DNA of 64,000 nt. It comes from an uncultured Pelagibacteraceae bacterium. GTDB lineage: Bacteria > Pseudomonadota > Alphaproteobacteria > Pelagibacterales > Pelagibacteraceae. The stretch spans positions 92,259 through 156,258 of the forward strand of contig CACNEM010000001.1 in the NCBI GenBank assembly GCA_902619495.1, written 5' to 3'. The notes below the pieces were generated by a model. That model saw only the letters and a program-made list of their open reading frames with translations. It did not search any database and was not told where the DNA came from. How positions within the stretch are numbered: the first letter of the stretch is position 1; each line of letters opens with the position of its first letter. Below, in pieces: positions 29,377 to 36,334 of the stretch. Made by a program: the position numbers and the translations under genes.

Positions 29377-30438
29377 ATGGGCACAGAATCAATAGAAGCT
29401 AGTTTTCTGTCAATTTTTGCATTAATAACTTTTTTTATCTTTCTTGTAATAAGTAAACTTTCACATAAGATAAAAAACGGAGCACTTCTAGACTCAAATT
29501 TTACAAAACCACAAGCGTTTCATGAATTACCTATAACTCGAAGCGGAGGAATTGCGAGCCTAATTTCATTGATTGTTTTTTTTGGAATTTACTATTTGCT
29601 TTACTCAAAAATTTTAATTGATTATATTTTAATAAGTTTCTCCATGTTTCTTATAGGTTTTCTTGACGATTTAAAAATTAATATAAAACCACTAAAAAGA
29701 CTTTTAATCATGATCTTCTTTCTTTCAGCATGTATTTATTTGTTACCTATCAGGATTTGGAATATAGATATTCCTTTTTTAACCTTTTTAATTAGAAATG
29801 ACATTTTTTCAACCTTATTTGTTTTATTATGTTTTTTATTTATAATAAATGGAGCAAATCTAATTGACGGTTTTAACGGACTGCTTGCAATAAATTTAAT
29901 AATTATCAATATTATTTTAACTTATATAAATATTTTGAATGCAAACGATGAATTTTCCTTAATCTTAATTGCTCAAATAATTTTACTACTTTCTTTCTTA
30001 CTATTCAATTTTCCCCATGCAAAAATTTTTCTTGGTGATAGCGGAGCTTATCTATTAGGTTCGCTTATAGCTTTAAACACAATTTTAACTAACAACATAA
30101 ACCCTAACGTTTCATCTTTTTTTTTCTGTACACTTTTATTTTACCCTTTTTTTGAAGTTTTCTTCTCGTTTTTTAGAAAAATATATCAAAAAAAATCCCC
30201 GATACACCCAGATGGTCTACATTTACACATGTTAAGTTTTTACTTAATGAGATCAAAATTTGGAAAATTTAAAGGTAACTTTTTAAATTCAATTATAATA
30301 AATGTTTGCTATTTAATTTTAATTTTTCCTGGGTTGTATTTTTTTGATAACCCAGTTTTAAGCAGATACTGGTTTTTTGCTTTACTCCTAATCTATTTAA
30401 TTATTTATATTAGACTTTATCGTTTAATAAAAAATTAA
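29377..30438 (+). CDS. WecA/MraY-family polyprenyl-phosphate sugar-1-phosphate transferase
   Basis: A 353-residue polytopic membrane enzyme that moves a sugar-1-phosphate from UDP-sugar to undecaprenyl phosphate. It has the family's Asp-Asp (FLDDLKINIKPLKR), NGANLIDGFNGL, the FLGDSGAYLLG catalytic loop and a C-terminal-loop HPDGLHLHML. The HxHxH-type final motif favours WecA-like GlcNAc-1-P transferases over MraY. It may start O-antigen or another surface glycan. It shares a promoterless 1-base junction with the EamA gene. Confidence 0.87.
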   Translation: MGTESIEASFLSIFALITFFIFLVISKLSHKIKNGALLDSNFTKPQAFHELPITRSGGIASLISLIVFFGIYYLLYSKILIDYILISFSMFLIGFLDDLKINIKPLKRLLIMIFFLSACIYLLPIRIWNIDIPFLTFLIRNDIFSTLFVLLCFLFIINGANLIDGFNGLLAINLIIINIILTYINILNANDEFSLILIAQIILLLSFLLFNFPHAKIFLGDSGAYLLGSLIALNTILTNNINPNVSSFFFCTLLFYPFFEVFFSFFRKIYQKKSPIHPDGLHLHMLSFYLMRSKFGKFKGNFLNSIIINVCYLILIFPGLYFFDNPVLSRYWFFALLLIYLIIYIRLYRLIKN

Positions 30439-30467
30439 ATTGATATATAAAACATCGACGTAACAAA

Positions 30468-30552
30468 GGGCAAGTGGCGGAATTGGTATACGCGCTGGTC
30501 TTAGAAACCAGTGCCGCAAGGCTTAAGAGTTCGAGTCTCTTCTTGCCCACCA
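30468..30552 (+). tRNA. tRNA-Leu (UAG)
   Basis: An 85-base tRNA with encoded CCA. Acceptor GGGCAAG pairs with CTTGCCC, discriminator A, then CCA. The anticodon stem CTGGT/ACCAG encloses loop CTTAGAA, giving anticodon TAG. A long variable arm and the GTTCGAGTC T-loop fit a class II leucine tRNA. The trigger factor ATG follows only six bases after the CCA. Confidence 0.97.
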
Positions 30553-30558
30553 AAATTT

Positions 30559-31932
30559 ATGAAAATAGAAGTACAATCGAAAAAAGGTCTAAGAACAATT
30601 TTGTCAGTTGTAGTTGATAAAAAAACAATACAATTGAAAATGGACGAGAGACTTAATGAATTACAAAAGGAAGTTACGTTAAAGGGTTTCAGGCCAGGTA
30701 AAGTCCCGTCATCTGTAATCAAAAGTCAATTTGGAAAATCTATTTATGGAGAAGTTATCGATAAAGTTTTGCGAGAAACTTCCTCTAAAGCAATTATAGA
30801 AAAAAAATTAAAAGTTGCAGGACAACCTAAAATTGATTTAAAACAATTCGGTGAAGGAAAGGACTTGAACTTTGAGCTTCAAATTGATTGTTTGCCAGAT
30901 ATAAAGTTAAAGTCTCTAGATAAATTTAAAGCTACTGAATATAAAATTATAATTGAAAAAAAAATTATTGACGACAAAATCAAAGAATTAGCGGAACAAA
31001 ATAAAAAATTCGAAGATAAAAAAGATAATGAAAAAGCTATTATTGGGGATCAAATAATTTTTGATTACTCAGCTACAATGGATGGTAATAAATTTGATGG
31101 AAGTGAGGGTAAGAGTGTTCAAATTGAACTAGGGAAAGATTTATTTCTAAAAGGGTTTGACGATCAATTAGTCGGAGTAAAAAAAGGTGATCTTAAAATT
31201 GTTGAATCAGTTTTGCCTGCCAATCATCCTAAAAAAGAATTAGCAAATAAAAAAACAAAGTTTGAATGTAAAATTTTAAAATTAAAAAAGTCTGTTCAAA
31301 ATAAAATTGATGATAACTTCGCAAAAATGATGGGTGCTAAAGATATTGCGGATTTAAGATCTCTTGTTGAAAAACAAATTTCAAGTCAATATAAACAAGC
31401 CTTTAATTCTATTACAAAAAAAGAAATTTTAGATCAAATCGAAAAAAGTCATGACTTAGATCTTCCAAAAAATTTAATAGAACAAGAAGTTTCGTTAATG
31501 ACCCAAAACCTTAAACCAGAGGATAAAGAGAAACACAAAGAAAAAAATGAAAATTTGGCAAAATCTAGAATTAAACTTGGCTTAATTTTAAATGAATTTG
31601 GAGAAAAAAATAATTTAAAAATTTCAGATGATGAAGTTAGATTTGAAATTCAAAAACAAATAAAAGGAATGCCAGGACAAGAAAAAATGATTTTAGAGTA
31701 TTATCAAAAAAATCCAAGTGCATCACAAAGTTTAAAAGGATCTTTATATGAAGAAAAAATAATTAAATTAATAAAATCTAAAATAGATCTTAAAACTGAA
31801 GAAATTGACACAAAAGAGGCTGACAAAATTATAGCTGATTTTAATCAACCTTCCAAAGGCGACAAACAAGCAAACAAAAACAAAACTTCAATTAAGGATA
31901 CAACAAAGTTAAAAAAAATTAGAAAAAAGTAA
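30559..31932 (+). CDS. tig: Trigger factor, ribosome-associated chaperone
   Basis: Binds nascent chains at the ribosome exit and has peptidyl-prolyl isomerase activity. 457 residues. The ribosome-binding loop GFRPGKVP is near residue 43; the FKBP-type domain (GDQIIFDYSATMDGNKFDGSEGK, LFLKGFDDQLVGVKKGD) spans about 150-240; a long charged helical C-terminus follows with a Lys-rich end. The start is fixed by alignment of MKIEVQSKKGLRTILSV with other trigger factors; an upstream in-frame start would lie inside tRNA-Leu. No Shine-Dalgarno exists in the six-base gap. Confidence 0.96.
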   Translation: MKIEVQSKKGLRTILSVVVDKKTIQLKMDERLNELQKEVTLKGFRPGKVPSSVIKSQFGKSIYGEVIDKVLRETSSKAIIEKKLKVAGQPKIDLKQFGEGKDLNFELQIDCLPDIKLKSLDKFKATEYKIIIEKKIIDDKIKELAEQNKKFEDKKDNEKAIIGDQIIFDYSATMDGNKFDGSEGKSVQIELGKDLFLKGFDDQLVGVKKGDLKIVESVLPANHPKKELANKKTKFECKILKLKKSVQNKIDDNFAKMMGAKDIADLRSLVEKQISSQYKQAFNSITKKEILDQIEKSHDLDLPKNLIEQEVSLMTQNLKPEDKEKHKEKNENLAKSRIKLGLILNEFGEKNNLKISDDEVRFEIQKQIKGMPGQEKMILEYYQKNPSASQSLKGSLYEEKIIKLIKSKIDLKTEEIDTKEADKIIADFNQPSKGDKQANKNKTSIKDTTKLKKIRKK

Positions 31933-31954
31933 TCAATAGTTGTATAAAACTTTA

Positions 31955-32566
31955 ATGAGTCGCAATTTTGAAGAAAAAATGAATAGCTTAATTCCTATGG
32001 TTGTCGAACAGACAAGCAAAGGAGAGAGAGCTTACGATATTTATTCAAGGCTTTTAAAAGAAAGAATTGTTTTTTTAGTTGGACCAGTCAATGATGCTGT
32101 TGCTTCTTTAGTAACAGCCCAGCTATTATTTCTAGAGTCGGAAAACCCGAATAAGGAAATTAATTTTTATATAAATAGTCCAGGGGGATTAGTAACAGCA
32201 GGGTTGGGTATTTATGATACTATGCAATATATTAATTCACCTGTTTCTACATTATGTATTGGCCAAGCATCTTCTATGGGTTCATTTTTATTGGCTGCGG
32301 GAGAAAAAGGTAAACGATACTCTTTACCAAATTCTAGAATCATGGTTCATCAGCCCTCCGCAGGTTTTCAAGGTCAGGCAACAGATATTCAAATTCACGC
32401 AAAAGAAATTTTATCTTTAAAAGAGAGGCTTAATAATATCTATTCTAAACATACTGGAAAATCAGTGAAAGAAATTTCTGAAGCATTAGAAAGAGATAAC
32501 TTCATGACAGCAGAGGAAGCTAAAAAATTTGGTCTAATAGACTCTGTTGTGGAAAAAAGAAAATAA
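31955..32566 (+). CDS. clpP: ATP-dependent Clp protease proteolytic subunit
   Basis: Serine peptidase barrel of ClpXP. From the ATG at 31955 it has 203 residues; an internal ATG at 31979 (195 residues) and a TTG at 31940 are alternatives, none with a clear Shine-Dalgarno. The catalytic triad is Ser107 (GQASSMGS), His132 (MVHQPSAG) and Asp171 (ERDNF). [29 protein letters not shown] is the typical start of the mature protein, so a short propeptide may be removed. It lies between tig and clpX as in most Proteobacteria. Confidence 0.95.
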
Positions 32567-32645: not shown

Positions 32646-33899
32646 ATGACTGAAAAAAATAATAAAAATATTCTTTATTGTTCCTTCTGCGGGAAAAGCC
32701 AACACGAAGTAAGAAAATTAATTGCCGGTCCTACAGTTTTTATTTGTGATGAGTGCGTTGAGCTCTGTATGGATATTATTAAAGAAGAAAACAAAAGCTC
32801 ATTGGTGAAACATCAAGACGGCGTGCCTTCTCCAAAAGAAATTTGCAACGTTCTCGACGATTATGTTATTGGGCAAAAATTAGCAAAAGAAATTCTCTCC
32901 GTAGCTGTTCATAATCATTACAAAAGATTAAATCATGAAACTAAAAATAATAAAGACGTTGAATTATCTAAATCAAATATTCTTTTAGTTGGTCCTACTG
33001 GATGTGGAAAAACCTTATTAGCTCAAACTTTAGCTAGAATTTTAGATGTTCCATTTACTATGGCAGATGCTACGACTTTGACAGAAGCGGGGTATGTAGG
33101 TGAAGATGTTGAAAATATAATTTTAAAACTATTACAATCTGCAGATTATAATGTTGAAAAGGCACAAAGAGGAATCGTTTACATTGACGAAGTAGACAAA
33201 ATTAGTAGAAAATCCGAAAACCCATCTATTACGAGAGACGTTTCTGGAGAAGGTGTTCAGCAGGCTTTATTAAAAATTATGGAAGGAACTATTGCTAGCG
33301 TACCTCCCCAAGGTGGAAGAAAGCATCCTCAACAAGAATTTTTGCAAGTTGATACTACAAATATTTTATTTATTTGTGGAGGTGCATTTGCTGGATTAGA
33401 TAAACTTATTGATAGTAGAGGAAAAGGAAGCTCTATAGGCTTTGGAGCAAAAGTAAAAAACTACAAAGAACAACCTCTTTCGGAATTAATGAAATTGTTA
33501 GAGCCTGAAGATTTAATTAAATATGGTTTAATTCCGGAATTTATTGGAAGAATGCCAATTATCGCAACACTTGATGATTTAGATGAAAAGTCGTTAGTAA
33601 AAATTTTAACTGAACCAAAAAATTCTTTAATAAAACAATATAAAAGGTTGTTTGAGTTTGAAGATGTAGAACTGGAATTTAAAGATGAAGCTATATCCGA
33701 GATAGCAAAGAAAGCGATTTCAAAAAAGACTGGAGCGAGAGGTTTGAGATCAATTCTTGAAAATATATTGCTTAAAACCATGTTTGAACTGCCTGATATG
33801 GAAAATGTTATAAAGGTGACTGTTGATAAAGCTTCAGTTAAAGGTAGCTCTGAACCCATTGTCACATACGGTGAAAAATCAACAACATCTGTAGCATAA
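32646..33899 (+). CDS. clpX: ATP-dependent Clp protease ATP-binding subunit
   Basis: AAA+ unfoldase that feeds ClpP; 417 residues. The N-terminal zinc domain has Cys12, Cys15, Cys34 and Cys37 ([19 protein letters not shown]). Walker A is [15 protein letters not shown], Walker [10 protein letters not shown], and sensor/arginine regions [19 protein letters not shown] and [14 protein letters not shown] are present. The pore loop reads GYVGED. Confidence 0.97.
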
Positions 33900-33949: not shown

Positions 33950-36334
33950 ATGAAAGCCTCATATTTAAAACCTCTGCTACCACTTAGAGATATCGTGATT
34001 TTTCCTTCTATGGTAGTGCCATTATTTGTAGGAAGGGAAAAATCTATTAAAGCTCTACAAGAAGTGATGAAGTCCGACAAGTCAATTGTTTTAGTAACTC
34101 AAAAAAATTCTGAAGTTGATGACCCTGTTGGAAAAGATTTATATCAATATGGATGTTTAAGTAAAGTCTTACAACTTCTAAAGCTTCCAGATGGAACAGT
34201 AAAAGTTTTAGTTGAAGGTGAAAAAAGGGTAAAAATTTTAAAACATAGTGAAAGTTCAAATAATTTCTTAAATTGTGAAGTTGAAGTTGTAGATGATCAA
34301 AATACCTCAAAAGATCTTGAACAGTTTGCTTCAGGTTTAGTTAAAAAATTTGAGAGACTTCAAACATTAAGTAAAAGAGAGTTTAACGAGAGTTCAAATA
34401 ACATTAAGAATTTAAAAGACCCCTCACAAATAGCAAATAACATATCTTCAAATTTAAATATCCAGATTTTTGAAAAACAAGAATTGCTTGAGATTACAGA
34501 TCTTAAAAAAAAACTAGAGAAAATTCATGCGATTATAGAAAAGGAAACAAGCGTGATATCTGTTGAGAAAAAAATAAGAGGTAGAGTAAAAAACCAAATG
34601 GAAAAAACTCAAAGAGAATACTATTTAAATGAACAGTTAAAAGCTATTCAAAAAGAACTTGGAGAAATTGATGAAGGTAAAGATGAATTGTCTTCATTGT
34701 CGAAAGCTATATCTGAGGCAAAAATGCCTAAATTAGCAAAAGAAAAATGTTTATCTGAATTAAAAAAACTTAAATCGATGAGTCCTATGTCAGCTGAAGC
34801 CACAGTAGTAAGAAACTATTTAGACTGGATGACAGAACTACCTTGGTCAAATAAATCAAAGATAAATACTGATTTAAATAATGCTCAAAAGATTTTAGAT
34901 GAAGATCATTATGGTTTAGAAAAAGTTAAAGAGAGAATAATAGAATTTCTTGCAGTACAAAAAAGAATCCAAAAAATGAAAGGCCCAATTTTGTGTTTAG
35001 TTGGCCCTCCAGGTGTAGGAAAAACTTCATTAGGTAAATCGATCGCAAAGGCAACAAATAGAAAATTTATTAGAATTTCTTTAGGTGGAATTAGAGATGA
35101 AGCTGAAATCAGAGGTCACAGAAGAACATACATAGGTTCTTTACCTGGAAAAATAATTCAGATGATGAAAAAAGCTGGAACAAAAAATCCTTTATTTCTT
35201 TTAGATGAAATTGATAAAGTTGGTAATGATTATAGAGGCGATCCGTCATCTGCTTTGCTAGAGGCTTTAGACCCTGAGCAAAATAAAGAATTTAATGATC
35301 ATTACTTAGAAGTAGATTATGATTTATCAGATGTAATGTTTGTTACAACTGCAAATACTTTAAATATACTTCCACCATTGCTTGATAGAATGGAAGTTAT
35401 CAGGTTGTCAGGTTATACAGAGGATGAAAAGTTTAATATTTCACAAAAATTTTTAATACCTAATCAAAGTAAAAATAACGGTCTTAAAAAAGAGGAGTGG
35501 AATATTGATGAAAATGTTATTAGAAAAATTATAAGACATTATACTAGAGAGTCGGGTGTTAGAAATCTTGAAAGAGAAATCTCAAAAATTGCAAGAAAGC
35601 TAGTTAAAAAAATAGACAATAAAGAAAAAGTTAATAACCCTGTTTCAGAAAAAGATTTAAAAGACTTGTTAGGAGTGCAAAAATTCAATTACGGGGAAAT
35701 AGAGGAGGAAAACAGAATAGGAGTTGTAACTGGTTTAGCCTGGACAGAGGTAGGTGGTGAAATATTAAAGATAGAGTCAGTTGTAATGCCTGGGAAAGGA
35801 AAAATGCAAATAACTGGTAAACTTGGAGATGTAATGCAAGAGTCAGTAAAAGCTGCAAAATCTTATATTAGATCTAAAAGTTTGGAATATGGAGTAATAC
35901 CACCTTTGTTTGACAAAAAAGACTTTCATATTCACGTACCAGAAGGGGCTACACCTAAAGATGGCCCGTCCGCAGGAATTGGAATGGTAACGTCAATTAT
36001 TTCAGCAATCACAGAGATACCAGTAAACAAAAATGTTGCAATGACAGGTGAGATAACTTTAAGAGGATTAGTTCTACCTATTGGAGGATTAAAAGAGAAA
36101 TTATTGGCAGCTCATAGAGCAGGTATAAAAAAAGTTTTAATTCCTGTTGAAAACAAAAAAGATTTAGTAGAAGTTCCTAAAACTATTCTAGACTCCATGG
36201 AAATTATTCCTGTTAAAAATGTTGATGAAGTATTAAAAGTTGCATTGACAAAACCTTTAAAAAGAGTTGAGTGGGTAGAAGTAGATCAGATAGCTAAAGA
36301 TAAACAGAAAAAAGGTGAGCTAAGTACTCATTAA
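33950..36334 (+). CDS. lon: ATP-dependent Lon protease
   Basis: Cytoplasmic AAA+ serine protease, 794 residues, full length. The LAN substrate domain starts [26 protein letters not shown] coiled-coil region precedes Walker A ([15 protein letters not shown]) and Walker B ([12 protein letters not shown]). The protease domain holds the Ser674-Lys717 dyad in [11 protein letters not shown] and [14 protein letters not shown], 43 residues apart as in E. coli. It completes the tig-clpP-clpX-lon block. Confidence 0.98.

Follow-up and report, generated by a model that had tools for sequence, protein, structure and literature searches.

Bacterial tRNA and mRNA can be produced as a single co-transcript, an example being the thrU-tyrU-glyT-thrT-tufB unit of Escherichia coli. 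The locus studied here, a tRNA-Leu(UAG) gene followed by tig (encoding trigger factor) in the SAR11 family, resembles that unit in that a tRNA and, after it, a protein gene with a role in translation share one strand. It differs in that the SAR11 spacer between tRNA and tig is 4–21 nt in length and mostly lacks a Shine-Dalgarno (SD) sequence, so that there is no ordinary leader between the tRNA and the tig AUG.

Another likeness may be found in mitochondrial tRNA punctuation, where a tRNA abuts the coding region and its excision defines the 5′ end of the mRNA (PMC9181182). The SAR11 tRNA abuts the start of tig in the same manner, and its excision would thus set the 5′ end of the message. In contrast to the mitochondrial system, the tRNA gene includes the CCA, no RNase Z is found over the cut-off in the SAR11 genomes searched, a minority of genes is involved, and the 5′ ends are predicted ones. 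The SD is missing at the start of 75.4% of Caulobacter genes, and the 375 leaderless mRNAs of this bacterium equal those with leaders in translation efficiency (PMC4117421). The tig start is similar in having no SD. However, the leaderless 5′ ends of Caulobacter correspond to transcription start sites, or to RNA-seq ends located at the AUG (PMC4117421), whereas the proposed 5′ end of tig would come from tRNA processing with a few leader bases left. Finally, tRNA-Leu(TAG) is a known site of SAR11 podovirus integration, where the prophage has trigger factor as its neighbor (PMC6811365); this is the same locus, although that paper concerns integration and not the expression of tig. Among the results listed by our literature searches there was no direct report of tig/tRNA co-transcription or of SAR11 start-site maps.

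The junction of tRNA-Leu(UAG) and tig

The window is the whole stretch of 64,000 nucleotides that was analyzed, from an assembly of 870,201 bases in 23 contigs that is about 77% complete. ARAGORN places tRNA-Leu(UAG) at 30468–30552 on the + strand, including an encoded CCA at 30550–30552; the Rfam match (RF00005) covers 30468–30549, without the CCA. The six bases AAATTT follow (30553–30558, presumed to be the region of tRNA 3′ processing), and then the ATG of tig at 30559–30561. The junction sequence is therefore CTTGCCCACCA, then AAATTT, then ATGAAAATAGAAG, i.e., the tRNA abuts the coding region with a gap of 6 nt. This agrees with an earlier sequence-only reading of the locus, which had also held that the spacer carries no SD and is too small for a separate promoter. 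Both points stand. For a duplex with the anti-SD the energy comes to about +1.4 kcal/mol, and a site scan called neither a promoter-like nor a terminator-like site between the tRNA and the ATG. The tRNA is the sole Rfam match at the junction, with no further structured RNA.

The tig gene (30559–31932, + strand) encodes a protein of 457 amino acids with Trigger_N, FKBP_C and Trigger_C domains. Since Trigger_N matches from position 1 of its profile, the ATG at 30559 is the right start. The reading frame is open back to a GTG at 30511 within the tRNA, but an N-terminal extension of trigger factor was rejected; the spacers of the SAR11 junctions put tig in each of the three frames with respect to the tRNA (34, 37 and 12 junctions), and hence the extension is not coding. 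The nearest named relatives of this trigger factor are from Pelagibacteraceae single-cell genomes and HIMB058, most of them 74–81% identical, which places the window in SAR11. Downstream on the same strand are clpP (31940–32566), clpX (32646–33899) and lon (33950–36334), open reading frames whose identities were read from their translations. Upstream, a glycosyltransferase family 4 gene (29377–30438, + strand; Pfam PF00953) ends 29 nt before the tRNA.

Could tig have a start of its own, from a promoter inside the tRNA gene or by leaderless initiation at the AUG? Compact genomes often have promoters within upstream genes, and GGTATACG in the D-loop of the tRNA bears a weak resemblance to a −10 element. 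However, this motif is GGTAGACACG in some relatives, and no promoter-like site was called on the + strand in 30300–30558. For transcription to begin at the AUG itself, a −10 element would have to lie within the CCCACCA that ends the tRNA. We consider a separate start of either kind to be very unlikely.

The short spacer is conserved in SAR11

We located trigger factor in 151 of 197 genomes of the family, many of which are incomplete. The junctions were taken from these loci, from further genome stretches and from the search for relatives of the window's trigger factor. In every one of the 83 distinct intact SAR11 junctions, tRNA-Leu(UAG) lies directly before tig, a recurrence indicating that the adjacency is not due to chance. 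The sequence-only reading had proposed comparing the spacing in other SAR11 genomes, and the short spacing proves to be conserved. The spacer ranges from 4 to 21 nt with a mode of 6–7, and is 10 nt or shorter in 71 of the 83 junctions. By length, there is one spacer of 4 nt, five of 5, 19 of 6, 21 of 7, three of 8, 11 of 9 and 11 of 10 nt; the longer ones comprise four of 11 nt, two of 12, one of 13, one of 15, three of 16 and one of 21 nt.

These spacers are 91% A/T. SD-like bases occur in nine of them and are absent from the other 74. Eight of the nine are 11–21 nt long and belong mainly to genera g9 and g12, and the remaining one, CAGGATATT, is a 9 nt spacer from one genome of the window's own genus. 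On one single-cell contig (CACCPE010000011.1 of AG-901-J13; loci L261 and L271) there are two tRNA-Leu-tig junctions that face opposite ways and have identical spacers, which may reflect amplification or a chimeric assembly.

The gene pair outside SAR11

The same gene pair is found beyond the family. tRNA-Leu(UAG) lies 7–273 nt upstream of tig in 57 of 67 alphaproteobacterial genomes outside SAR11. These genomes were drawn from two sets with three members in common, in which 26 of 30 and 33 of 40 have the pair; the spacing of 273 nt, that of L078, was worked out from the ends of the loci. Some 11 of the 57 pairs have tight spacers (24 nt or shorter), several with SD-like bases. We therefore reject the idea that the synteny is a SAR11 invention, as the pair is class-wide and tight spacing occurs elsewhere too. 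Judged by its distribution among these genomes, the pair is most simply seen as ancestral in alphaproteobacteria, with the SAR11 arrangement a compressed form; since the outside genomes hold the same pair at 7–273 nt, SAR11 would have shrunk an old spacer.

Prophage-type junctions

At four junctions of prophage type, namely those of G044 (L065), G006 (L058), AH-326-M23 (L252) and an IMG/VR contig (L126), just the 3′ half of the host tRNA-Leu precedes tig. Evidently the adjacency of an intact tRNA to tig is not obligatory. In three of the four an intact phage-type tRNA-Leu lies 164–207 nt upstream of tig, with the 3′ half of the host tRNA and the spacer retained; in the G006 junction no intact phage tRNA was recognized. 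A co-directional tRNA-Leu is thus usually still supplied upstream of tig. An integrase-like frame lies upstream in L065 and L252, and in the phage HTVC011P the integrase gene is followed by tRNA-Leu. A search for viral contigs that carry the tRNA end of g4 type found none.

Probable transcription of the tRNA with tig

A promoter-like −10 element, TATATAA, lies upstream of the tRNA at 30444–30450 (+ strand). A TATA-type hexamer is present between −36 and −11 from the tRNA in 70 of 83 SAR11 junctions, compared with 24% in shuffled sequences, and mostly starts at −25 to −22; these are not 70 independent events, because related genomes share ancestry. In genus g4 a TTGGACA box can be seen by eye some 15–17 nt before the hexamer. 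The strict consensus scan does not call the TATATAA of the window, and we therefore treat it as a conserved motif and not as a mapped promoter.

The tRNA and tig are on one strand of the window with no terminator in between. Given the upstream TATA element, the lack of an SD and the lack of a promoter or terminator between the two genes, it is very likely that they are co-transcribed.

Possible processing of the transcript

What might release the message from the tRNA? RNase E/G is present in all eight SAR11 genomes tested. A search of the same number for RNase Z (TIGR02651) gave nothing over the curated cut-off, with weak matches only. Profile matches across the 197 family genomes place RNase PH over its cut-off in 25, all of genera g5, g7, g9 and g12, and not in the window's own genus. 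In g1–g4 and g6, where RNase PH was not found, the matches are weak and PNPase-like (mostly frames of about 690–705 amino acids), a pattern suggesting that the clade as a whole has lost this tRNA 3′ exonuclease. RNase Z being without a match over cut-off and RNase PH absent from the genus, gene content makes RNase E/G the best candidate for the 3′ cut. RNase D-like frames of about 200–225 amino acids are general among the SAR11 genomes tested, and frames of 291–406 amino acids occur only in the tested genomes of g5, g9 and g12.

We considered whether loss of RNase PH might be the cause of SD-less spacers. This was rejected, as there is no clean correlation across genera. Among those with the enzyme, g9 and g12 have SD-like spacers, and the spacers of g5 and g7 are mostly not SD-like.

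The reading that we prefer is as follows. The tRNA-Leu and tig genes would form one transcription unit, with RNA polymerase starting at a sigma-70-type promoter shortly upstream of the tRNA, where the conserved TATATAA lies. The polymerase would copy the tRNA and continue into tig, with nothing to stop it. RNase P would trim the 5′ side of the tRNA, and the cut after the CCA would fall to an endonuclease at work in the A/U-rich spacer, RNase E/G being the most likely one. The tig mRNA so produced would keep a leader of roughly 0–10 nt and be translated without an SD, as other alphaproteobacteria do with leaderless or SD-less mRNAs. The arrangement would have arisen by streamlining of the ancestral alphaproteobacterial pair, and not as a purpose-built regulatory device. 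We assign a probability of roughly 55% to this explanation as a whole. Of its parts, a short-leader tig mRNA generated by tRNA 3′ processing is plausible, and we put the odds that this processed message is the one mainly translated at somewhat above one half.

Alternatively, the co-transcript might be translated unprocessed, with initiation on the unstructured A/U-rich ACCA-spacer-AUG segment next to the folded tRNA; processing of the tRNA would then later destroy the tig message instead of creating it. In the unprocessed message, ACCA and the spacer together give the AUG some 10 unpaired nt on its 5′ side, past the acceptor stem; initiation without an SD is usual in SAR11; and the SD kept by some relatives in spacers of 11–21 nt would serve a message with a leader. 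The tRNA alone is predicted to fold into a cloverleaf, and the predicted accessibility of the tig start site in the co-transcript is much like that in a message beginning at 30553. Because accessibility is similar with or without the tRNA, folding permits translation of the unprocessed form but favors neither message. Set against this, the tRNA would need quick excision for its own use, and with the folded acceptor stem some 10 nt from the AUG there would probably be little room for the 30S subunit. We regard translation of the unprocessed message as rather improbable.

The genomic background

How unusual is the tig junction for a SAR11 genome? We used the complete 1.2 Mb genome G003, with simple ORF calls from the first ATG. 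Its 16S rRNA has an intact anti-SD (GGATTACCTCCTTTCT), and a core SD is found before 11.6% of its genes, compared with 4.0% in shuffled sequences; the corresponding figure for genes of the window is 15.8%. With a core SD in just 12–16% of SAR11 genes, the missing SD before tig was rejected as an unusual signal. Same-strand gaps between coding sequences in G003 have a median of 2 nt. A same-strand ORF lies within 20 nt after eight of 31 tRNAs in G003 and seven of 22 in the window's own genome, compared with none of the 31 tRNAs scanned in a 3.7 Mb relative and one of 33 in a 0.9 Mb relative (ATG-started ORFs). With the SD rare, coding gaps small and other SAR11 tRNAs abutting genes too, any surprise at the tig junction is tempered.

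The short spacer might then be simply neutral genome compaction, with tig like any SD-less gene and the tRNA without particular effect. The median coding gap of 2 nt, the ~84–88% of genes without a core SD, the other tRNAs that adjoin genes and the separation tolerated in prophage-type junctions all favor this. However, a tRNA, unlike a coding sequence, must be excised, and if it is co-transcribed an effect on the 5′ end of tig is hard to avoid; moreover, the synteny itself has been kept across most of the class. We think that compaction without consequence for tig is unlikely, though less so than translation of the unprocessed message. Since compaction is compatible with either form of transcript, the confidences placed in these alternatives overlap. 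Were compaction all that has happened, the locus would still show clearly how an ancestral gene pair can be compressed to its limit.

The sequence-only reading went further, suggesting that expression of the chaperone is tied to tRNA maturation. As regulation this did not hold up. Proximity is its sole support; the synteny is old with spacers of up to 273 nt outside SAR11, SD-less starts are normal in SAR11, and no intact tRNA adjoins tig in the prophage-type junctions.

Other genes that abut tRNAs

In the window's genome several tRNAs besides tRNA-Leu(UAG) lie 2–18 nt before a same-strand protein gene. Histidyl-tRNA synthetase (hisS) follows tRNA-His after 4 nt (L105, 1582–2913), a TypA-like GTPase follows tRNA-Met(CAU) after 2 nt (L112, 2–1495), and an AMP-binding enzyme follows tRNA-Leu(CAA) after 4 nt (L122, 1592–3082). 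A similar-looking 4 nt neighbor of tRNA-Leu(CAA) is also present in G003. Genes that abut tRNAs are a recurrent feature of SAR11; of the cases examined, tig is conserved best.

It is tempting to see in tRNA excision a general SAR11 route to near-leaderless mRNAs, serving tig, hisS, the TypA-like GTPase, the AMP-binding enzyme and others, but we hold this view only tentatively and think it doubtful. It would be a free-living parallel to mitochondrial punctuation, possibly eased by a reduced set of tRNA 3′ exonucleases (no RNase PH was found in the core clade). If the processed form is the message in use, SAR11, among the most abundant bacteria of the sea, makes some of its mRNA 5′ ends by tRNA excision; a mitochondria-like trait would be present in a free-living alphaproteobacterium, and streamlined genomes could dispense with leaders. 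The tRNA-Leu(UAG)-tig pair provides a concrete conserved locus for this question of 5′ ends, and tRNA-His-hisS a second case in the same genome. Lastly, in G003 a gene read as EF-Tu begins 40 nt after a tRNA-Gly(UCC), in this instance with an SD.
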